Positions 9,548-25,593 of a DNA stretch of 33,396 bases are shown piece after piece. The stretch covers positions 1 through 33,396 of IMG/VR virus record IMGVR_UViG_3300029319_000234; one strand, written 5' to 3'. Both the position numbers and the translations under genes were made by a program. The notes beneath the pieces were generated by a model, which saw nothing but the letters and a program-made list of their open reading frames with translations, did not search any database and was not told the DNA's origin. Each line of letters starts with the position of its first letter. The stretch's first letter is position 1. Source of the DNA: a virus.

Positions 9548-10531
9548 TTAAAGTCTCTCGAAAGATGACCCAGGAGTTCTAGTGACAGTAATGTCTTTTA
9601 GAAATATTTCATCAGTCGCTGTAGCGTTTTTAAGAATAGCTAAATAAGGCACAAGAACATCACCGTCATCAAATGTAAATGCGGCTGTAGTTGCTGGTGC
9701 AGCTAGTGTACCTTCTCCTGCTACTTCATTTACAACTAACTCATATGTAACTACACCAGCAGAGGATAAATTAACCTTTAATCTTAAATTTTGGTTATCC
9801 ACTGGAACTGAAGCACCACAGTCTGTTGATGTTGATGTACCAGAGTTATTCAGGTCTGTTTGAATTTCAATATTGGTATCACCCTGTGCTCCAAAAGCAA
9901 CAACGTCTGTATAAACTAAATCACCTGCCGCTGCTGCTGTAATCTGAGCGTTAAATGCAGTTTGAAATTCTTCAGTTTTTCTAAAACCTATTACAATACA
10001 ATCAAAGTCTGTATAATCTGCAGCTTGGAAAGTTGCATCAATAGATCCAGAATGTGTTCCAACTGTAAAAGTATGAGGACCTGTTCCTTGTGCATTACCG
10101 CCACAAATCATTTGCAATCCGACATTATTAGTTGTTTCACCATCCATACATAAGTTCAAACCTGCATGAGTTGTCGCTGTGTCTGTTGCTGGTACTGTTC
10201 CATCTAACATTGGCGCAGTTCCACCTGCAGAAAACGCACCAACTGCAACACATGCTGCAGGATACATTTGTCCTTGAGGACCAATGAACAACATACCAAA
10301 CTTGTCACCATCTGCTAAAACACCAACAGCACTATTTGCCATCATTGTTGTGATTGGTGGTGGGCATGTAATATAATTATATTGAAAAATAGTTGTTGAT
10401 GCTGCCGCTGTTATTTGTCCAGTTGAGCTAACTGAATAATTTTCTGTGATAGCACCAGTTGAGGTATTTTTGGTGATTTGTTTAAAACCACCTTCAGATC
10501 TGACTGGACCTGAAAAAGTTGTATTAGCCAT
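9548..10531 (-). CDS. Virion protein with 'SGPVRSEGGF' N-terminus, 327 aa
   Basis: The start MANTTFSGPVRSEGGFKQIT is a recognisable N-terminal tag of marine phage virion proteins located just after the major capsid gene. The remainder is beta-rich with Gly/Thr/Ala composition and a C-terminal DEIFLKDITVTRTPGSSFERL. It is a candidate head-fibre or decoration protein. A strong terminator (10597-10621) lies between it and the capsid gene, so its expression may depend on read-through or a separate promoter in 10532-10596. I see no clear promoter there. Confidence 0.75.
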   Translation of the reverse strand: MANTTFSGPVRSEGGFKQITKNTSTGAITENYSVSSTGQITAAASTTIFQYNYITCPPPITTMMANSAVGVLADGDKFGMLFIGPQGQMYPAACVAVGAFSAGGTAPMLDGTVPATDTATTHAGLNLCMDGETTNNVGLQMICGGNAQGTGPHTFTVGTHSGSIDATFQAADYTDFDCIVIGFRKTEEFQTAFNAQITAAAAGDLVYTDVVAFGAQGDTNIEIQTDLNNSGTSTSTDCGASVPVDNQNLRLKVNLSSAGVVTYELVVNEVAGEGTLAAPATTAAFTFDDGDVLVPYLAILKNATATDEIFLKDITVTRTPGSSFERL

Positions 10532-10596
10532 TTCAATCTCCTTGTCTTGGCAATTGTCGAAGTTAATTCTTCGTCAAGGTAATTTAAGTATATATT

Positions 10597-18591: not shown

Positions 18592-18702
18592 TAACTAGTT
18601 ATAACTAGTATTATAACTAGTTATAATAATATTACAACTAATAATATAGTTATAACTAGTTATTTATAGTTATAGCTAGTTATTTTATAGTTATAACTAT
18701 AG
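18592..18702. repeat. Array of AT-rich palindromes (TAACTAGTTA family)
   Basis: This stretch is built from half-sites TAGTTATA and TATAACTA in alternating orientation. It includes the perfect 16-bp palindrome ACTAGTTATAACTAGT and the 15-mers ATAGTTATAACTAGT and ATAGTTATAGCTAGT, which recur at 28443-28506. It could form cruciforms or bind a dimeric protein in tandem. It lies in the gap between the terminase genes, where packaging sites are often found. Confidence 0.8.
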
Positions 18703-19306: not shown

Positions 19307-19337
19307 CCTGAAATTCTCCTGAAGTTATTCAAAATAA

Positions 19338-19359
19338 AAAAAGTTCATGTGCACTTTTT
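19338..19359. terminator. AAAAAGT/ACTTTTT hairpin, possible two-way terminator
   Basis: A 7-bp inverted repeat (19338-19344 with 19353-19359) has loop TCATGTGC and A and T runs on either side. The same hairpin type occurs at 24146, 26476 (inverted) and 32358. Here it stands upstream of the small terminase on the leftward side, so it could limit early leftward transcription into the late genes. The stem has few G/C pairs, so its strength as a terminator is doubtful. Confidence 0.5.
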
Positions 19360-19430
19360 ACCATGATCTAATCATAATTATCAAATAAATAAAAAAAATT
19401 TCAGTGCTGTATCCTGCAGGTTACCTAGGT

Positions 19431-19470
19431 TTCAATTACTTTCAATTACTTTCAATTACTTTTAATTACT
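19431..19470. repeat. Four tandem 10-bp repeats, TTCAATTACT
   Basis: Three exact copies of TTCAATTACT and a fourth with one change (TTTAATTACT) lie end to end. A 10-bp period places each copy on nearly the same face of the helix. They end 7 bp before the -35 hexamer of the rightward promoter, so they look like an activator or repressor binding array, or an UP-type element. Confidence 0.9.
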
Positions 19471-19477
19471 TTAGGAG

Positions 19478-19508
19478 TTGACTATTAATCAAAAGTATGA
19501 TCTATAAT
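19478..19508 (+). promoter_or_regulatory. Sigma70-like early rightward promoter
   Basis: TTGACT (19478-19483) and a perfect TATAAT (19503-19508) are spaced by 19 bp, slightly longer than ideal. The transcript would begin near 19512-19516, at the GGGCATCC that forms the first helix of the leader RNA. No other promoter of this quality is visible before the early genes. No phage RNA polymerase is encoded here, so host sigma70 use is plausible. Confidence 0.65.
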
Positions 19509-19510
19509 AG

Positions 19511-19871
19511 GGCATCCACCTTATTTGTGGTTTTTAGAGTTTCACTACCAACCTCTAAAGTAAAAATGGGATGCAGGTTAAACTCCCTGCTCTTCTATCT
19601 CAGAGAGTACTGAGACGATGTTGACAACTCCCTTGATTGTGTGCACTCAATTTTGTGCATGTGGCAATCAAGACTAGTTGGTTGGTAGTCAATTATAATC
19701 TCCTATGATTATAGCAATGCAGTTTATGGTGTAGCCTAGTAAGTTATTGATCAACTTATAGTAGTTCAAATTCTTGAAATTTGCGAAAGAAGTAGAGCAA
19801 GTATGCTCGACTTGGTCTTTAACTGAAGTGTAGCTTTTGCTTTGAATACATTATCCATAAACTGCACTGTA
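19511..19871 (+). ncRNA. Structured leader RNA ending at the first ribozyme cut
   Basis: No open reading frame of note occurs here, but helices are dense. They are GCATCC 19512-19517/569-574; TTTAGAG 19533-19539/553-559; CTCAG 19599-19603/610-614; CTTGATTG 19632-19639/665-672 with TGCAC/GTGCA inside; GACTA 19672-19676/686-690; TATAATC 19694-19700/707-713; and an 11-bp perfect helix, GCAGTTTATGG 19719-19729 with CCATAAACTGC 19855-19865, enclosing hairpins at 19740-19758, 19767-19783 and 19795-19808. The last helix abuts ribozyme 1. If the ribozyme cuts after 19871, a roughly 355-nt RNA is released. It does not match an RNA class I know. Some of the short helices exclude one another. Confidence 0.55.
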
Positions 19872-19916
19872 ATCTAGTGTGTGCTAGGTCTGATGATCTC
19901 AAAAGAGTGAAACAGT
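19866..19916 (+). ncRNA. Type III hammerhead ribozyme 1
   Basis: Helix III: ACUGU 19866-19870 with ACAGU 19912-19916. The cleavage triplet is GUA, with the cut after A19871. Helix I: AUCUAG 19872-19877 with CUAGGU 19884-19889 (one G-U), loop UGUGUG. Core CUGAUGA is at 19890-19896. Helix II: CUC/GAG with loop AAAA and a flanking U-U. GAAA is at 19909-19912. Every conserved core nucleotide of the hammerhead family is present. The layout and the UGUG of loop I match the satellite tobacco ringspot virus type III ribozyme. The ribosome binding site of the 120-aa gene follows 13 nt later. Confidence 0.93.
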
Positions 19917-19941
19917 TAATCTATAACGTAGGAGTTCAATT

Positions 19942-20304
19942 ATGAAATTTAATAAATCAATAACTAGACCTTTTTCAAATATTTTAAATTATAAGTTTGG
20001 TTGGGCATTTGGTGAGTTAGCAAATCAAACAGTTGTTAAGCATGAAAGTTTCCATTTTGTTATCGATAGCCTTGATGAGTTAGTCAAGGTTATTGAGATG
20101 ATGGATGCCATACCACCACAAAAAACTAGAGACATGTGGCACGACAAAGTCAAAAAGCAATTGACTAACATTGAGCGAGCAAAAGCATTGGTTGCAGATT
20201 ACCAAAAAGCAGTAGTTTGTGAATACAAGTTTTTATCGTCTCCAATGGCTGACACTATGCTTAAACAAGGTTTTGTTGGTGATGAAGAAAAGTTACAAGC
20301 ATAA
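19942..20304 (+). CDS. Early protein of unknown function, 120 aa
   Basis: The first gene of the early operon, starting MKFNKSITRPFSNILNYKFG with TAGGAGTTCAATT ahead of the ATG. It has an aromatic-rich N-terminus, FHFVIDSLDELVKVIEMMDA, and a charged helix QLTNIERAKALVADYQKAVV. It is probably mostly helical. No family is recognised. As the first gene after the leader and ribozyme 1, and followed by hairpin plus ribozyme 2, it would be on its own RNA segment. Host takeover is a typical job for such genes but is not shown. Confidence 0.75.
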   Translation: MKFNKSITRPFSNILNYKFGWAFGELANQTVVKHESFHFVIDSLDELVKVIEMMDAIPPQKTRDMWHDKVKKQLTNIERAKALVADYQKAVVCEYKFLSSPMADTMLKQGFVGDEEKLQA

Positions 20305-20312
20305 ATTGATTA

Positions 20313-20335
20313 GGGGCAGGATTATTTCCTGCCCT
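20313..20335 (+). other. Hairpin between gene 19942 and ribozyme 2
   Basis: GGGCAGGA (20314-20321) pairs perfectly with TCCTGCCC (20327-20334), loop TTATT; G20313-U20335 can extend it. It lies 9 nt after the stop codon and directly abuts ribozyme 2, with no U run, so it is not a standard terminator. A 3'-end-protecting hairpin left by ribozyme cleavage is the best reading. Confidence 0.8.
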
Positions 20336-20386
20336 ACTGTATAGGAATGTGTGTTCCTACTGATGATTACAAAAGTATGAAACAGT
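20336..20386 (+). ncRNA. Type III hammerhead ribozyme 2
   Basis: Helix III: ACUGU 20336-20340 with ACAGU 20382-20386. The triplet is GUA, cut after A20341. Helix I: UAGGAA 20342-20347 with UUCCUA 20354-20359, loop UGUGUG. Core CUGAUGA 20360-20366. Helix II: UAC/GUA with loop AAAA and a flanking U-U. GAAA 20379-20382. Compared with ribozyme 1, helix I has changed at nearly all positions on both strands while staying fully paired. AGGAG follows at 20400. Confidence 0.93.
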
Positions 20387-20412
20387 TCATAATGAACATA
20401 GGAGAATATTTG

Positions 20413-20616
20413 ATGGCTAAAGTTAAAAGTAAAAAGGTTGTGGAATATATTTGGAAACTTACTGAAGATGAAGTTGGAGCAATTCAAAGTGCAATGATGA
20501 GTTCTGATTATTTTCATTCAGATAGTTTATCTGACCAAGGTTTGGATGATGCAGGCATTGATGCAATGGTTTCAGCATTTAAAAAGTTTGGTATTGATAT
20601 TTCAGAAAAATCATAA
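20413..20616 (+). CDS. Early protein of unknown function, 67 aa
   Basis: I start it at ATG 20413 (MAKVKSKKVVEYIWKLTEDE), 8 nt after GGAG. The open frame extends back to 20347, but those codons lie inside ribozyme 2 and should not be translated. A TTG at 20410 would add one residue. The rest, VGAIQSAMMSSDYFHSDSLS followed by GLDDAGIDAMVSAFKKFGID, looks like a compact helical protein. No family is recognised. It is flanked by ribozymes 2 and 3, so it is predicted to be a single-gene segment. Confidence 0.75.
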   Translation: MAKVKSKKVVEYIWKLTEDEVGAIQSAMMSSDYFHSDSLSDQGLDDAGIDAMVSAFKKFGIDISEKS

Positions 20617-20625
20617 TTGTTAAAT

Positions 20626-20644
20626 GGCAGGATTTATTCCTGCC
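20626..20644 (+). other. Hairpin between gene 20413 and ribozyme 3
   Basis: GGCAGGA (20626-20632) pairs with TCCTGCC (20638-20644), loop TTTAT. It is nearly the same as the hairpin at 20313 and again stands just after a stop codon and directly before a ribozyme, without a U run. The repeated pair suggests that hairpin and ribozyme are one unit that was duplicated. Confidence 0.8.
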
Positions 20645-20645
20645 T

Positions 20646-20696
20646 ACTGTCTAGGAAATGTTATTCCTACTGATGAGACCAAAGAGGTCGAAACAG
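20646..20696 (+). ncRNA. Type III hammerhead ribozyme 3
   Basis: Helix III: CUGU 20647-20650 with ACAG 20693-20696. The triplet is GUC, cut after C20651. Helix I: UAGGAA 20652-20657 with UUCCUA 20664-20669, loop AUGUUA. Core CUGAUGA 20670-20676. Helix II: GACC 20677-20680 with GGUC 20686-20689, loop AAAGA. GAAA 20690-20693. It differs from the others in three ways: the preferred GUC triplet, a 4-bp helix II without the U-U, and a different loop I. It is the closest to textbook hammerheads. Confidence 0.95.
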
Positions 20697-20727
20697 AAAT
20701 TTAACAATCATAGTAATGGAGATTATA

Positions 20728-21426
20728 TTGAGCAAGAACACAAACACAAAAACAACTACCTTTTCTTTTTCATCACAAGCGATTACTGACATTGCAGAAT
20801 GTGAGTTTCAAATTGGTAAAATGCAAACTGCTAACAAAGCCAACACATTGGCTAAGAATGGTTTTAAACTAAAACAATATTCTGAAACAGTTAGTAGTTT
20901 GGCTAATCCTGCTTATCTTAAAAAGTCAGGATTTTTTGTCGATGATGTTAGAAAAGCAGTTGATCAAGAACTGCAGGATGCAAAAATGTCTAAGGCATCT
21001 AGGAAGAGAATGTTAGAAAACTCCAATAGGTTTATCACTCAAATAGTTAAACCTAAAAAGGGATCTAATTACACTCCTGATACTTTTTTTGATTATTGTA
21101 AAGAACATGACATTACGTCAGAAACTTTACTTAAAAAGCATATTGCTGAAGAGTATAAACCTAGCCAAGCTAAAGACATATTTGCTAGTCAGATTGTTGG
21201 TGGTTGGTCTACTAAAAAGGATGATGATGGAAAAATTGTTCAAGGCGATACTTACAAGCCTAGTAAATATTCAATTGAAGAAATTGATGAAATCATCAAT
21301 CACCTAACTACTGAGAAACTTGCTAGGAAAAAGATTGAGGATGATGCATCCAAGTCTAAGTCTAGTCATGACAAAGAAATGGATAATGTATCATCTAATA
21401 TGTCAGCCTTAGGAGTTCAATTATGA
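20728..21426 (+). CDS. Early protein of unknown function, 232 aa, TTG start
   Basis: The start is TTG 20728, 6 nt after GGAG, giving MSKNTNTKTTTFSFSSQAIT; the ATG at 20716 lies within the ribosome site and is less likely. The body is helical and Lys-rich: CEFQIGKMQTANKANTLAKN, SGFFVDDVRKAVDQELQDAK, TPDTFFDYCKEHDITSETLL. The C-terminal third is low complexity (SKSKSSHDKEMDN). No domain is recognised. ATGA overlap couples it to the next 62-aa gene. It lies just upstream of the MoxR/VWA pair, so a partner or substrate role is possible but not shown. Confidence 0.75.
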   Translation: MSKNTNTKTTTFSFSSQAITDIAECEFQIGKMQTANKANTLAKNGFKLKQYSETVSSLANPAYLKKSGFFVDDVRKAVDQELQDAKMSKASRKRMLENSNRFITQIVKPKKGSNYTPDTFFDYCKEHDITSETLLKKHIAEEYKPSQAKDIFASQIVGGWSTKKDDDGKIVQGDTYKPSKYSIEEIDEIINHLTTEKLARKKIEDDASKSKSSHDKEMDNVSSNMSALGVQL

Positions 21427-21611
21427 TAACTTATCCAAAAGGTTTTAATGATCTTGATGAACTTACTAAACAAGATATTGAGATTAATTTAAAACTACAA
21501 AAAAGATTGGGTAAAAATACTTTCAAAAACATATTTATTGGAAGTGGTTGGCTATCTGCAGATAAGGATGGAAAACTAGTTTTTACACCAATTAAGCATA
21601 AATCATCCTAA
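21423..21611 (+). CDS. Small early protein, 62 aa
   Basis: Begins MITYPKGFNDLDELTKQDIE and has KNIFIGSGWLSADKDGKLVF. Its ATG overlaps the stop of the 232-aa gene, and AGGAGTTCAATT precedes it inside that gene. It is followed by a G6/C6 hairpin and ribozyme 4, so genes 20728 and 21423 should share one ribozyme-bounded segment. No family is recognised. Confidence 0.7.
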   Translation: MITYPKGFNDLDELTKQDIEINLKLQKRLGKNTFKNIFIGSGWLSADKDGKLVFTPIKHKSS

Positions 21612-21636
21612 AAAGTCTTGATTTAAGCGTCACTGA

Positions 21637-21658
21637 GTGGGGGGAAACATCCCCCCAT
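21637..21658 (+). other. G6/C6 hairpin upstream of ribozyme 4
   Basis: TGGGGGG (21638-21644) pairs with CCCCCCA (21651-21657), loop AAACAT; a G-U pair can extend it. It is very stable and lies 26 nt after the stop codon and 20 nt before ribozyme 4. No U run follows. It occupies the same place as the hairpins at 20313 and 20626 but is unrelated in sequence, so function rather than descent keeps a hairpin here. Confidence 0.75.
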
Positions 21659-21677
21659 GTGTGATTGTACCTTGGAA

Positions 21678-21732
21678 AACTAATAATCTAGTGTGTGCTA
21701 GATCTGATGATTACGAAAGTATGAAATTAGTT
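21678..21732 (+). ncRNA. Type III hammerhead ribozyme 4
   Basis: Helix III: AACUAAU 21678-21684 with AUUAGUU 21726-21732, 7 bp and different in sequence from the other copies. The triplet is AUA, cut after A21685. Helix I: AUCUAG 21686-21691 with CUAGAU 21698-21703, loop UGUGUG. Core CUGAUGA 21704-21710. Helix II: UAC/GUA with a GAAA tetraloop and a flanking U-U. GAAA 21723-21726. The paired changes in helix III against copies 1-3 and 5 are good covariation evidence. GGAG (21750) and the TTG start of the MoxR gene follow. Confidence 0.93.
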
Positions 21733-21759
21733 AACTCAATATAAAAATAGGAGATAAAA

Positions 21760-22869
21760 TTGAGCAAGCAAGAAAACATTACTTTTTTAAATGATGCAAT
21801 CGATGGCAGTTTTGAAGTTCTAAAATGGAACTACTTGAACTATGGAAAAGATAAGCAATTATTTGTTCCAATGTGGTCAGGTCGTGTTGGTTGTGGAAAA
21901 TCTCAAGGTGTTAATCAAGTTAAAAATCTTTTAGCTGATTGGATGCTAGATCAAGGTAAAATCAAAGATAAATCAGAATACAAGTTGGTTTATGTTGATG
22001 CACCTCAATACGATGCAGGGGAAATTAGTGGTTGGTTTGTTCCATCCAAGGATGGTCAATCTATGACTAGATTGAGACCTAACCATTGCCCTGCTGATGG
22101 TGCAGGAGTTATCTTTATTGATGAGATTACACAAGCTCCAACATCAATCCAAAATATTTTAGGTCAGCTTATCCTAGAACGTAGATTAGGTGAGCATAAA
22201 CTTGGCAAAGATTGGATGATTGTTTGTGCAGGCAATAGAGTTAAGGATAGGGCAGGATCTAATGTTATGCCAACTCAAGTTAGAGATAGGCTTAAGCCTT
22301 GGTATAATGTCGATAACAATATTGATAGTATTGTCGCCCACTTTTCTAAAAAAGGTGTAAATTCTAAAATCATTTCATGGCTAAAATATCAGCCTAGATA
22401 TGTTGAAGAAAGTGCCTTTGATCGTGATGCAAATTCAAATCCAACTCCTAGATCATGTGAAATAGCAGGATCAGTTTTGGATATGGAGTTGTCTGATCAT
22501 TTAGTATTTCCTACTCTAGCAGGCACAATTGGGGAAGAGGGAGCACAAGCCTTAATGAGTTTCTTAAAGTACTACGATAGGTTACCAAATATTGATAACA
22601 TTATCAAAAATCCTAGTACTGCTGAGATGGTCGAAAAAGGCACTGCTCTTGCATTTGTTTTAACTACTGAGTTATCTAAAAGAGCAAATAAAAGTAACTT
22701 TGGTAACATTGCCGATTACATGGTCAGAATGTATCAAGAAAATGATACTGCTGAACTTGTAGCAAGTTTTGTTAAAGAGTGCTTGGCAAGGGATGGAACA
22801 TTAAAAACTCATCCTAAAATGCTAGAACTTTTTGGTAGCAATTCACCATTCAAAAATCTTTTAAATTAG
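21760..22869 (+). CDS. MoxR-type AAA+ ATPase, 369 aa, TTG start
   Basis: Starts at TTG 21760, 6 nt after GGAG. Walker A is GRVGCGKS (41-48), Walker B VIFIDE (117-122), sensor 1 N159 in CAGNR, and RDR at 175-177 is a likely arginine-finger region. MoxR ATPases act with VWA-domain proteins as chaperone-like machines that insert metal or remodel protein complexes; the next gene supplies such a partner. The pair lies between ribozymes 4 and 5 with no ribozyme between them. In a phage the target could be a host complex or a virion component; this is unknown. Confidence 0.9.
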   Translation: MSKQENITFLNDAIDGSFEVLKWNYLNYGKDKQLFVPMWSGRVGCGKSQGVNQVKNLLADWMLDQGKIKDKSEYKLVYVDAPQYDAGEISGWFVPSKDGQSMTRLRPNHCPADGAGVIFIDEITQAPTSIQNILGQLILERRLGEHKLGKDWMIVCAGNRVKDRAGSNVMPTQVRDRLKPWYNVDNNIDSIVAHFSKKGVNSKIISWLKYQPRYVEESAFDRDANSNPTPRSCEIAGSVLDMELSDHLVFPTLAGTIGEEGAQALMSFLKYYDRLPNIDNIIKNPSTAEMVEKGTALAFVLTTELSKRANKSNFGNIADYMVRMYQENDTAELVASFVKECLARDGTLKTHPKMLELFGSNSPFKNLLN

Positions 22870-22877
22870 GTGCTGAT

Positions 22878-24101
22878 ATGACTTATTCAGTTACTGAACT
22901 TTTATCTAGATCTCAATGGCGAATGGTTGCAGACTATGGCGATTTAGCGTTAGGCTTTATCGCTAGTAGTTTGTACTACATGAAACAAATTGAAGATAAT
23001 TCAATTCCCACGATGGCAACTGATGGCAAGGATATATTTTACAATCGTGAATATACTTTGTCATTGGAAGAAAGCGAAATTGATTTTGTTCGTATTCATG
23101 AGTGCATGCATCGTATATCAAAACATCATTTAAGAAGAGGTGATCGAGATCCTATAGTTTGGAATTTTGCCTGCGACTTTGTAATTAATCCTACTGTTGA
23201 GGGATTTAGTTTTATTAATCACAGTGGCGATGGTCGTAGGTCTCATATAATCAAAATGCCTAAAGGTGGTTTATTAGATCCTATGTTCATAGGAAAATCT
23301 GCTGAATGGACATATGATTATCTGATGCAAAATTTCGATAAGCAGGATGATGGTAAGGGAGGTGTTAAACTTGTAGCCAAGGATGGAAGTGGAAAAGAAT
23401 TTCATCAATGTCCTTGGGGGCAAGTTAATGAAACTCCTATGAGTGCACAAGAGAAAGTTATTGAGGGGCAAGAAATTGACCAAGAAATAATGGCAAGTGC
23501 TAACCAACAAAAATCCATAGGCAAAGGAACACCAAACTTTGTTAAAGGTCTTTTAGATAAGATCAAGCAAAGCAAGGTTTCTTGGCAGGATGTTTTGAGA
23601 CGTTTCATAGGTGGTGACCAACCTGACGATTATTCTTTCAGAAAGCCTAACAAAAAAGTGTATCACAACTACAAGATTTATGCCCCAACAGTTTTAAAAG
23701 TTGGTGCAGGCGATATTGTGGTAGCATGTGATACTAGTGGCAGTGTTACCAATGATGAACTAAGTCAGTTCCTTGGTGAGATTAGGGCGATCAGTGAGGA
23801 TCTAATGCCTACATCAGTAACCATAATTTCATGTGATTACAAAATAAGAAACGTAATCAGATATGAGCAAGGTGAAGAAATCAAAAACCTAAATACTACT
23901 GGCAGGAGTGGAACAAGAGTTTCACCAGTGTTCAGCTATTTAGAGGATGAAAATATCCAGTTTGATACCTTGGTTTATATGTCAGATTTATGGATTGATG
24001 ATTATCCTAAACAATTTGATAAGCCATTGTTATGGGTAGGCACTGCAGTTGAGGGGCAACGTAAACCTCCAATTGGTGAGGTCACTTATATTACAAAATG
24101 A
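22878..24101 (+). CDS. Metallopeptidase-like/VWA protein (DUF2201 type)
   Basis: A 407-residue protein. The N-terminal part has HECMH (74-78), a zinc-metallopeptidase HExxH motif, and WNFACDFVIN (95-104), both typical of the DUF2201 N-terminal domain. The C-terminal part is a VWA-like fold with the metal-ion site DTSGS (285-289) after the strand GDIVVAC. The order metallopeptidase-like then VWA, next to a MoxR ATPase, is a known two-gene unit in bacteria. It starts 8 bp after the MoxR stop. Whether the HExxH domain is an active protease is unproven. Confidence 0.9.
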   Translation: MTYSVTELLSRSQWRMVADYGDLALGFIASSLYYMKQIEDNSIPTMATDGKDIFYNREYTLSLEESEIDFVRIHECMHRISKHHLRRGDRDPIVWNFACDFVINPTVEGFSFINHSGDGRRSHIIKMPKGGLLDPMFIGKSAEWTYDYLMQNFDKQDDGKGGVKLVAKDGSGKEFHQCPWGQVNETPMSAQEKVIEGQEIDQEIMASANQQKSIGKGTPNFVKGLLDKIKQSKVSWQDVLRRFIGGDQPDDYSFRKPNKKVYHNYKIYAPTVLKVGAGDIVVACDTSGSVTNDELSQFLGEIRAISEDLMPTSVTIISCDYKIRNVIRYEQGEEIKNLNTTGRSGTRVSPVFSYLEDENIQFDTLVYMSDLWIDDYPKQFDKPLLWVGTAVEGQRKPPIGEVTYITK

Positions 24102-24106
24102 TTTTT

Positions 24107-24137
24107 GGGGCAGTTTAGATTAGATCTAGATTGCCCT
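24107..24137 (+). other. GGGGCA hairpin after the VWA gene
   Basis: GGGCA (24108-24112) pairs with TGCCC (24132-24136), with a second small stem TAGAT/ATCTA (24116-24120 with 24124-24128) inside. The GGGGCAG...TGCCCTA theme matches the hairpins at 20313 and 26187. It is 5 nt after the stop codon and precedes the A/T hairpin at 24146 and ribozyme 5. Confidence 0.65.
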
Positions 24138-24145
24138 AAAAAAAT

Positions 24146-24168
24146 AAAAAGTTCGCATGCACTTTTTT
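24146..24168 (+). terminator. AAAAAGT/ACTTTTTT hairpin before ribozyme 5
   Basis: AAAAAGT (24146-24152) and ACTTTTT (24161-24167) with loop TCGCATGC, followed by another T. It resembles the hairpins at 19338 and 32358. With so few G/C pairs it may cause only partial termination, which would lower expression past the MoxR/VWA pair. Confidence 0.5.
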
Positions 24169-24171
24169 AAA

Positions 24172-24224
24172 AACTGTAATCGTATGTGTGTACGATCTGA
24201 CGATTGGGAAACCATGAAACAGTT
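24172..24224 (+). ncRNA. Type III hammerhead ribozyme 5
   Basis: Helix III: AACUGU 24172-24177 with ACAGUU 24219-24224. The triplet is GUA, cut after A24178. Helix I: AUCGUA 24179-24184 with UACGAU 24191-24196, loop UGUGUG. Core CUGACGA 24197-24203 uses C at the one free core position (CUGANGA). Helix II: UGG/CCA with a GAAA tetraloop and a flanking U-U. GAAA 24216-24219. The only unpaired core change among the five copies falls exactly at the position that tolerates any base, which strongly supports function. Confidence 0.95.
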
Positions 24225-24248
24225 AATTCTAAAATGGAGATTATATTG

Positions 24249-24422
24249 ATGAGTATAAAAGAACAAAATCTAGATATGGATACCAAACCTAATTGGAGAC
24301 AATCTTGTATTGAAATTGAAAAGGTCGTTCGTAATGTCATAGATAGCCATAAAAAGCAGGGCAACCAAGCGATGGCAGGATACATTGAAGAGTGTTGGAA
24401 TACTATGTTGCGAGGTCATTAA
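24249..24422 (+). CDS. Small early protein, 57 aa
   Basis: Starts MSIKEQNLDMDTKPNWRQSC at ATG 24249 behind TGGAGATTATATTG; the TTG just before it (24246) could be used instead. Reading further upstream enters ribozyme 5 and is not real. Body: IEIEKVVRNVIDSHKKQGNQ, AMAGYIEECWNTML. It is a small helical protein of unknown function. Its stop overlaps by a few bases the ribosome site of the next gene (GCGAGG at 24409-24414). Confidence 0.7.
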   Translation: MSIKEQNLDMDTKPNWRQSCIEIEKVVRNVIDSHKKQGNQAMAGYIEECWNTMLRGH

Positions 24423-24423
24423 G

Positions 24424-25593
24424 ATGAAATATAAAGGTTGTTTTAGATCTAATTTTGATAACGTAGAGGTGTTGCGATATACTGCACACAGTTATTATAG
24501 ATCGAAATTAGATTTCAAATCGTATCTAGATAATAATAAGATCACTAGTTTCATGCATAGAGTATTTTACTTTATGCATGAAGTTGCACATAACAGAAAA
24601 GTCGAAGAGAGAAAAGAGAGTAGCCTTAAGGAGTACGATTATACAGAGACTACCAAGGCGATGCTAGATGACCTAGACTTTGATGTTCGTAAATGGGAAT
24701 TAGACAACTCATTCAACAAGAGATTGAAGAACATGCACAATGGTCATGCCAATCAATATGCTTGGCAGAATGACGAACCTAAAGAACCATGCAAATGCAA
24801 AATGTGTGATAATCCAAAGGCTTTGAAAGTCATGCAGTATTTTAGGAACTTAGCTAAAAACGAAGATATTACTTTCAATGGATACAATACTAAAAATCAA
24901 ATGCAGAAGTTTATCATATCTAAAAAGATGGCGAGGTTTTACTTCTCCAAAATTTTAGACCAAGGTATATTTCATAAGCATGGTATCATGTCCAAGGTAA
25001 GTGCCACTAAATCATGGAGAAACCTTTTTCCAAATACTAGGGGAATGTTTAAAGTTATGCCTTTGTACTGCCCAATACTTAAAGAACGTAATAGTCGATC
25101 TATATTAGGTTTTGGTTTACAACAAGAACCTAGTAAAGAACAAGGTTATTATGGCAATCATGTTTTGGAGATTAGTCCTACATATTTTTACAAAGTCTAC
25201 ATGAAAGGCTTTGGTCATAACAAAGTAGAGATTAACTCCAAGCGAGTATTTATTGCTGACGTTAAGTTACTAAAAGCTGATAAAGAGATATCAACAGATC
25301 CTAGGATGAAACTTTACAAGGCAGTGGGATACGTTTCACTGAACGAAAAAGTTACTAAACATTTTTACACAATCCTTACCTATCAATACGAAGATGGGCA
25401 TGGAACAATAGAAATGAATACATCTATTGGTGGCACTCAAAATAGACTTGGAGACTTTGTACCTCCTAAAGTTCACATTAGTGGCATAGAAAAAGATCAT
25501 CAAGACTTAACATCTGCTGAGAAACGTAGGTTGGTTAAGATGATGGAGAGCAGAGTATCAAAGGGTAATTTAAAAGCTATCAATGCTATCTAG
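24424..25593 (+). CDS. Large early protein of unknown function, 389 aa
   Basis: The start is ATG 24424, 9 nt after GAGG, giving MKYKGCFRSNFDNVEVLRYT. It contains a Cys cluster, CKCKMCDNPK (around residues 121-130), that could bind metal, and HRVFYFMHEVAHNRKVEERK with a HEVAH sequence (an HExxH-type motif) near residues 52-56. The C-terminal half is beta-rich with DGHGTIEMNTSIGGTQNRL. HEVAH could mark a zinc peptidase, but the surrounding fold is unknown to me and the motif may be chance. It ends in front of the unusual leader at 25594. Confidence 0.7.
   Translation: MKYKGCFRSNFDNVEVLRYTAHSYYRSKLDFKSYLDNNKITSFMHRVFYFMHEVAHNRKVEERKESSLKEYDYTETTKAMLDDLDFDVRKWELDNSFNKRLKNMHNGHANQYAWQNDEPKEPCKCKMCDNPKALKVMQYFRNLAKNEDITFNGYNTKNQMQKFIISKKMARFYFSKILDQGIFHKHGIMSKVSATKSWRNLFPNTRGMFKVMPLYCPILKERNSRSILGFGLQQEPSKEQGYYGNHVLEISPTYFYKVYMKGFGHNKVEINSKRVFIADVKLLKADKEISTDPRMKLYKAVGYVSLNEKVTKHFYTILTYQYEDGHGTIEMNTSIGGTQNRLGDFVPPKVHISGIEKDHQDLTSAEKRRLVKMMESRVSKGNLKAINAI

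Follow-up and report, generated by a model that had tools for sequence, protein, structure and literature searches.

Background

The early genes of phage T7 are transcribed into a long RNA that RNase III cuts between genes, which leaves mRNAs with structured ends. The cutting there is done by a host protein. Here we describe an operon of an uncultured phage in which the RNA itself is predicted to make the cuts, through five type III hammerhead ribozymes that stand ahead of successive gene units. The operon lies in the IMG/VR virus record IMGVR_UViG_3300029319_000234, a linear record of 33,396 bases that was analysed over its full length and is called the window below. The role of hammerheads in bacteria and their phages has been described as an open question (PMC6155905).

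Clusters of hammerheads in phage DNA have been reported before. Perreault et al. found in 2011 that multiple hammerheads flank prophage genes and proposed that they cut transcripts into operon- or gene-length mRNAs (PMC3088659). Clustered phage hammerheads cleaved in vitro, and a triple set did so also in E. coli (PMC3088659). In these prophage clusters (the ardA triple of A. tumefaciens, C. scindens and A. caulinodans), as in the window, several hammerheads flank genes or short blocks of one phage operon on the coding strand. Variants with a U10.1-U11.1 mismatch, a form that is also found here, were noted to be active. The same survey first rejected hits mispaired at 10.1-11.1, a filter that would drop most copies described below. 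The prophage clusters surround genes of inconstant identity, and the main text of that study names no adjoining hairpin or terminator. In contrast, the operons described here have up to six copies, nearly all of type III, with the same loop I and with unit boundaries that are conserved across related phages.

Two further systems have a hammerhead ahead of a start codon. The HHphage ribozyme of haloviruses HF1 and HF2 lies 13 nucleotides (nt) before the start codon of an early polycistronic unit, and the mapped 5' end is at most 3 nt from the cleavage site (PMC3088659). It differs from the elements described here in being a single copy, in an archaeal virus, and a salt-adapted variant. RiboJ is a type III hammerhead that is placed directly before a ribosome site and leaves a 5' hairpin (PMC6206723), an arrangement like the one predicted for the window. 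RiboJ is artificial and has an extra hairpin downstream of the ribozyme, whereas here the hairpin precedes the ribozyme and would belong to the 3' end of the mRNA before it, and the arrangement is serial in one operon.

Hammerhead clustering and the idea of dicing were already published in 2011. An initial annotation of the window, made from the sequence alone, knew of no described phage operon with five copies, each just ahead of a ribosome site, and this novelty narrows to the serial, conserved, one-per-unit deployment. As far as the searched literature shows, which includes few subscription papers, such deployment is new. The same is true of the hairpin that often accompanies the ribozyme upstream, of the predominance of the U-U form and of how widely the group is spread. 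We propose, with a probability of roughly 0.7, that hairpin and hammerhead form a cassette, placed at unit boundaries, by which one long transcript is diced. If this is true, the system would be a natural counterpart of the RiboJ insulator. The role of hammerheads becomes testable here, in one operon with five predicted cuts, a hairpin per junction and relatives that have gains, losses and compensatory changes.

Five type III hammerheads in the window

The window was searched with a descriptor consisting of a NUH site, helix I of at least 4 bp, CUGANGA, helix II, GAAA and a closing helix III. Exactly five type III hammerheads were found, all on the plus strand, at 19866-19916 (copy 1), 20336-20386 (copy 2), 20646-20697 (copy 3), 21678-21732 (copy 4) and 24172-24224 (copy 5). 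Cleavage is predicted between 19871 and 19872, 20341 and 20342, 20651 and 20652, 21685 and 21686, and 24178 and 24179, respectively. The order is that of type III in every copy: cleavage site, helix I hairpin, CUGANGA, helix II hairpin, GAAA and an open helix III. All helices pair. The core (C3 U G A N G A9, G12 A A A15.1 and U16.1 H17) is present in 5/5 copies, and copy 5, with CUGACGA, deviates only at N7. The five motifs are thereby confirmed as type III hammerhead ribozymes that are predicted to be self-cleaving. Chance origin was rejected, as 100 Markov shuffles searched on both strands gave a single descriptor match in total, or approximately 0.01 expected per window.

These are the same five motifs, with the same predicted cleavage positions (19872, 20342, 20652, 21686 and 24179), that the initial annotation had listed, and it had rightly confined the change in copy 5 to a tolerant position. 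Its account of the type III parts was correct but overlooked the U10.1-U11.1 mismatch, the upstream hairpin and the gene-cassette pattern. Helix II of copies 1, 2, 4 and 5 opens with this mismatch and then has only 3 bp. Copy 3 has the usual G10.1-C11.1 and a loop I of AUGUUA. The U10.1-U11.1 form occurs in nature and is the best tolerated mispair (PMC3088659). Because it is documented as a natural, active variant, the pairing of N10.1-N11.1, seen in copy 3 and absent from 4/5 window copies, is a consensus feature and not a strictly defining one. With regard to a possible tertiary contact between loops I and II, the loops UGUGUG and RAAA are nearly constant among the copies collected, but the search pattern selected for these loops; the UGUGUG loop common to 4/5 window copies was read before any pattern search.

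The Rfam family RF00008 (Hammerhead_3) has the same order of parts, core and cleavage site, and most copies described here fall outside its model. Only copy 3 was matched (40.6 bits, E 1.2e-5), below the gathering score of 48.5. Copies 1, 2, 4 and 5 gave no RF00008 match, even in short stretches at E <= 10. The initial annotation had stated that a covariance search scoring all five below threshold would refute the ribozymes, and with RF00008 this is formally what was found. However, a custom covariance model recovers all five. It was built from 23 distinct copies of the window and its relatives, with four from the window and copy 3 excluded. Copies 1, 2, 4 and 5 score 75.2, 76.3, 72.9 and 71.0 bits and the held-out copy 3 scores 36.4 bits. 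Neither the descriptor nor this model found further hammerheads elsewhere in the window, where the next best location of the model has E = 0.74. The failure with Rfam reflects the RF00008 model and not the sequence, and the gathering score is a cut-off of the curators, not a property of ribozymes. The four copies are presumably missed because U10.1-U11.1 stands at the start of helix II and is followed by no more than three pairs. A large group of phage hammerheads escapes the current Rfam models.

Covariation and spread among relatives

The helices differ in sequence between copies yet remain paired, as had been claimed for the window. Covariation among the 23 gaplessly aligned copies is 0.932, compared with 0.227 when shuffled; 13 of the 15 pairs have changes in both partners, and pairing is 100% in helices I and III. 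For 99 distinct copies the value is 0.955 (0.229 shuffled, at most 0.126 in slid controls), helix I is 100% paired and the core is invariant within the covarying frame. The alignment of 23 copies is the cleaner evidence, because that of 99 copies was fitted to the model. Position 10.1-11.1 is U-U in 52 of the 99 copies, G-C in 42, A-A in 4 and G-U in 1.

The closest relative, L002, is 94-97% identical to the window across long flanking matches and less so over the front genes. Every helix difference in copies 1, 2 and 4 preserves pairing. Two helix I positions are changed and still paired in copy 1 (compared with L002:4516), an A-U has become G-C in copy 2, and copy 4 has three compensatory double changes. 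In copy 3, loop II has an indel of one base, and copy 5 is identical.

A strict pattern matched 29 viral contigs, and a looser pattern matched at least 118 IMG/VR contigs. Whole-contig searches found one to six copies per contig. G017 (59.9 kb, nearly a full genome for its size class) has three copies inside 5 kb. The strict U-U pattern had no match in 84,980 host genomes. Among cultured phages that share the terminase or ATPase, the custom model found no hammerhead in the whole records of HTVC027P and HTVC023P. Nor did the model find any in the portions that were searched of four others, namely the first 50 kb each of 023Pt_psg01 and DSL-LC04, 9.4 kb of CRP-7 and a section of MW202828. A match of 33 nt in 023Pt_psg01 (E 0.012) was discarded, as the motif was absent when read.

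Placement ahead of gene units

An open reading frame starts 12-60 nt downstream of the ribozyme in 121 of 124 usable copies, which extends to the relatives the placement just ahead of each unit's ribosome site first noticed in the window. With a strict test (ATG, at least 50 amino acids (aa)) the count is 113/124, compared with 13% at random positions. Most leaders have a Shine-Dalgarno sequence. One large group (L099, L085, L098, L093, L079 and others) has AT-rich leaders without it, as in Bacteroidota, which suggests other hosts.

The order in the window, with letters for gene families, is hammerhead, F0, hammerhead, F18, hammerhead, F1 and F10, hammerhead, ATPase and VWA, hammerhead, F4. 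L002 has the same layout except that F11 replaces F18 and F10 is missing. L178, a 16.9 kb contig, has six hammerheads, with F9 in front. A second phage group keeps the order F1-F6-ATPase-VWA-F4, but in it only the front genes and F4 have a ribozyme ahead of them. The unit order is thus kept and front units are exchanged, and the ribozymes mark the unit boundaries.

A hairpin upstream of the ribozyme

In 93/129 contexts the 30 nt ahead of the ribozyme contain the end of a G+C hairpin with 6 or more pairs, and 54 of these hairpins directly touch helix III. The corresponding frequency is 3.5% in shuffles and 3.7% at positions 250-800 nt away. Other same-strand junctions of the same contigs are a fairer control; hairpins are present at 49/55 hammerhead junctions (89%) and at 85/189 others (45%). 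Those at hammerhead junctions are less often U-tailed than those at the other junctions. Because a T-run follows the hairpin in only 1/93, these are not ordinary intrinsic terminators. No forward hairpin-plus-T-run terminator was found at the unit boundaries, and promoter-like (sigma-70) sites between units showed no excess over shuffles.

All hairpins of the window units are on the plus strand. G+C hairpins without a U-tract touch copy 2 (20313-20335, with a compensatory A-U to C-G in L002) and copy 3 (20625-20645). Copy 1 is touched by a stem, GCAGTTTATGG/CCATAAACTGC (repeat I10, 19719-19865), with a 125-nt loop, which takes the place of the compact hairpin of the relatives; L002 and L006 have GGGGCAGGCTTTATGCCTGCTCC at this position. 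A G+C hairpin at 21637-21658 precedes copy 4 and a hairpin at 24105-24139 precedes copy 5, where a second, weak hairpin lies at approximately 24146-24167. At copy 3 an outer helix, ATTGTTAAAT/ATTTAACAAT (20613-20625/20699-20711), encloses hairpin and ribozyme and is also present in L002.

The touching hairpin could instead be a part of the ribozyme that stacks on the short helix III to help it fold, and the upstream mRNA would then gain nothing from it at its 3' end. We consider this possible but doubtful. The hairpin is within 3 nt of helix III in 75/93, and in a type I copy of contig L013 the hairpin itself is the end of helix III. The mean length of helix III is 5.4 bp with a near hairpin and 6.3 bp with a farther one, but this difference is small. 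Hairpins that are 9-33 nt off, at copies 4 and 5 and other sites, are too far for stacking, and a general outer helix around the hairpin was rejected (3/75 versus 24/375 in controls).

A model for dicing of the transcript

From the motif, its covariation, placement and conservation and its association with a hairpin, we infer cleavage, co-transcription and an effect on stability and expression. The cassette runs from the stop codon of the previous gene through the G+C hairpin, the type III hammerhead and a 21-33 nt leader with a Shine-Dalgarno sequence to the start codon. The operon is probably transcribed as a single RNA, and the conserved catalytic structure suggests that each hammerhead cuts it 3' of the NUH triplet. 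In hammerhead cleavage helices I and II remain on the downstream piece, so that the first nucleotide of this mRNA would bear a 5'-OH and lie immediately in a stem of 6-7 bp. At the 3' end of the upstream mRNA, the G+C hairpin would be followed by a short tail with a 2',3'-cyclic phosphate. The polycistronic transcript would be divided into five separate messages: F0; F18; F1 and F10; ATPase and VWA; and the F4 unit. Such structured, unusual ends should resist host decay and insulate each ribosome site from upstream RNA. This would be processing without a protein enzyme, a counterpart of the RNase III processing of T7 early mRNA.

Stabilisation of mRNA by hammerhead-made ends is plausible by analogy. 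RNA with a 5'-OH is reported to be a poor substrate for the 5'-end pathway of RNase E, which in E. coli uses the 5'-monophosphate (PMC4191395). The satellite-derived hammerhead of RiboJ, placed before a ribosome site in E. coli, raised transcript approximately 2-fold and protein 2- to 10-fold (PMC6206723).

Several points weigh against dicing. When the bare motifs are folded by minimum energy, the CUG of the core is often paired with the 3' strand of helix III, which is a competing inactive fold. Cleavage may be slowed by a helix II that has only 3 bp and the U10.1-U11.1 mismatch. The hairpin test is negative in 36/129 contexts, and at copies 4 and 5 the hairpin stands away from the site (21 and approximately 33 nt before). 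RNase E also cuts internally by direct entry, without a free 5' end (PMC4191395), so that a protected 5' end need not stabilise and protection may be partial. Internal promoters of an unrecognised type could provide alternative mRNA starts.

Alternatively, the hammerheads may cleave to make gene cassettes interchangeable and insulated, with the repeated elements aiding recombination and message processing as a by-product. A small front gene that brings along a hairpin, a ribozyme and a ribosome site would then function at any place in the operon. The front genes do vary at constant boundaries (F18 of the window is F11 in L002, and F9, F0 and F21 come and go), and synthetic RiboJ serves exactly as such an insulator. 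However, exchange does not extend to the ATPase, VWA and F4 units, whose ribozymes are nonetheless kept with compensatory changes; the shared tracts are short and the stem sequences very different. We regard this explanation as unlikely. A use as regulated switches is more improbable still. In this case the rate of cleavage would depend on a ligand or protein, on whether the previous gene is translated or on how the leader pairs, and would set the time of expression of each unit. The alternative folds that pair the core CUG with CAG of helix III would suit a switch, as would a conserved hairpin ahead of copy 1 (approximately 19697-19716) whose loop, by reading, is complementary to the ribosome sites of units 2 and 4. 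The short fixed loops (UGUGUG, RAAA) give a sensor little room, and a conserved expansion or aptamer is absent from the 99 copies, though the search pattern favoured these loops. That the motifs are inactive relics or chance is very hard to sustain, even though no copy is above the Rfam threshold: the shuffles predict almost none, close relatives show compensatory substitutions and the core is invariant in a covarying frame.

For the dicing cassette we lean slightly towards a wider statement, that it is a general, protein-free system of operon processing in whole groups of uncultured phages, both those with Shine-Dalgarno leaders and those whose AT-rich leaders lack this sequence. Each unit would have a separate mRNA that carries a hairpin at either end, without triphosphate or monophosphate, and gene units would be interchangeable.

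Genes of the operon and neighbouring features

On the left side of the window the minus strand carries tailed-phage genes for terminase, portal and head, and the plus-strand operon begins at approximately 19,900. The initial annotation called the operon genes early, which they may be; what the sequence shows is their order and strand. All genes listed here are on the plus strand. Unit 1 (19942-20304, 120 aa, family F0) and unit 2 (20410-20616, approximately 68 aa, F18) are of unknown function; L002 has an unrelated gene in place of the latter. The first gene of unit 3, with a TTG start, also encodes a protein of unknown function (20728-21426, approximately 232 aa, F1) and is followed by a second gene (F10, 21423-21611, 62 aa) with no hammerhead ahead. 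Unit 4 encodes an AAA ATPase of MoxR type (21760-22869; phrog_1297 4.9e-59, PF07728) and a metallopeptidase-like plus VWA-like protein (DUF2201; 22878-24101; PF13203, PF09967). Unit 5 has a gene of approximately 58 aa (24246-24422) and one of 389 aa of unknown function (24424-25593, F4). Genes after hammerheads in other contigs include those for an ArdC-like antirestriction protein, which recalls ardA of the prophage clusters (PMC3088659), and a gamma-glutamyl cyclotransferase-like protein.

Other elements occupy similar positions in some relatives. A permuted element stands before the relative of the unit 3 gene at L178:6152-6215 (-), L018:7399-7500 (+), L019:10712, in L027 and at L030:2581-2641 (-). 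In it GAAA comes first, then a putative cleavage site and then CUGANGA, as in type II; it has two hairpins apart from each other, and a covarying outer helix of 9 bp replaces helix II. The type I hammerhead at L013:3880-3941 (+) scores 27.7 bits with RF00163 (gathering score 34) and has the same setting, with an intergenic hairpin that ends helix III.

The operon is preceded by a non-coding leader (19307-19865) that is approximately 80% alike in L002 and has long-range pairing; copy 1 would release it as a separate RNA. The leader hairpin at approximately 19697-19716 reads TATAATC-TCCTA-TGATTATA, and UCUCCUAU is complementary to the ribosome sites of units 2 and 4. Tandem TTTCAATTAC repeats at 19430-19470, ahead of the operon, are possible operator sites. 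A match to the Rfam Mu-gpT-DE RNA lies at 10529-10579 (-), directly before the gene at 9548-10531, with 45.2 bits against a gathering score of 49, and another is at L004:10491-10538. Dense palindromic TATAACTAGTTATA repeats lie beside the terminase genes at 18595-18700.

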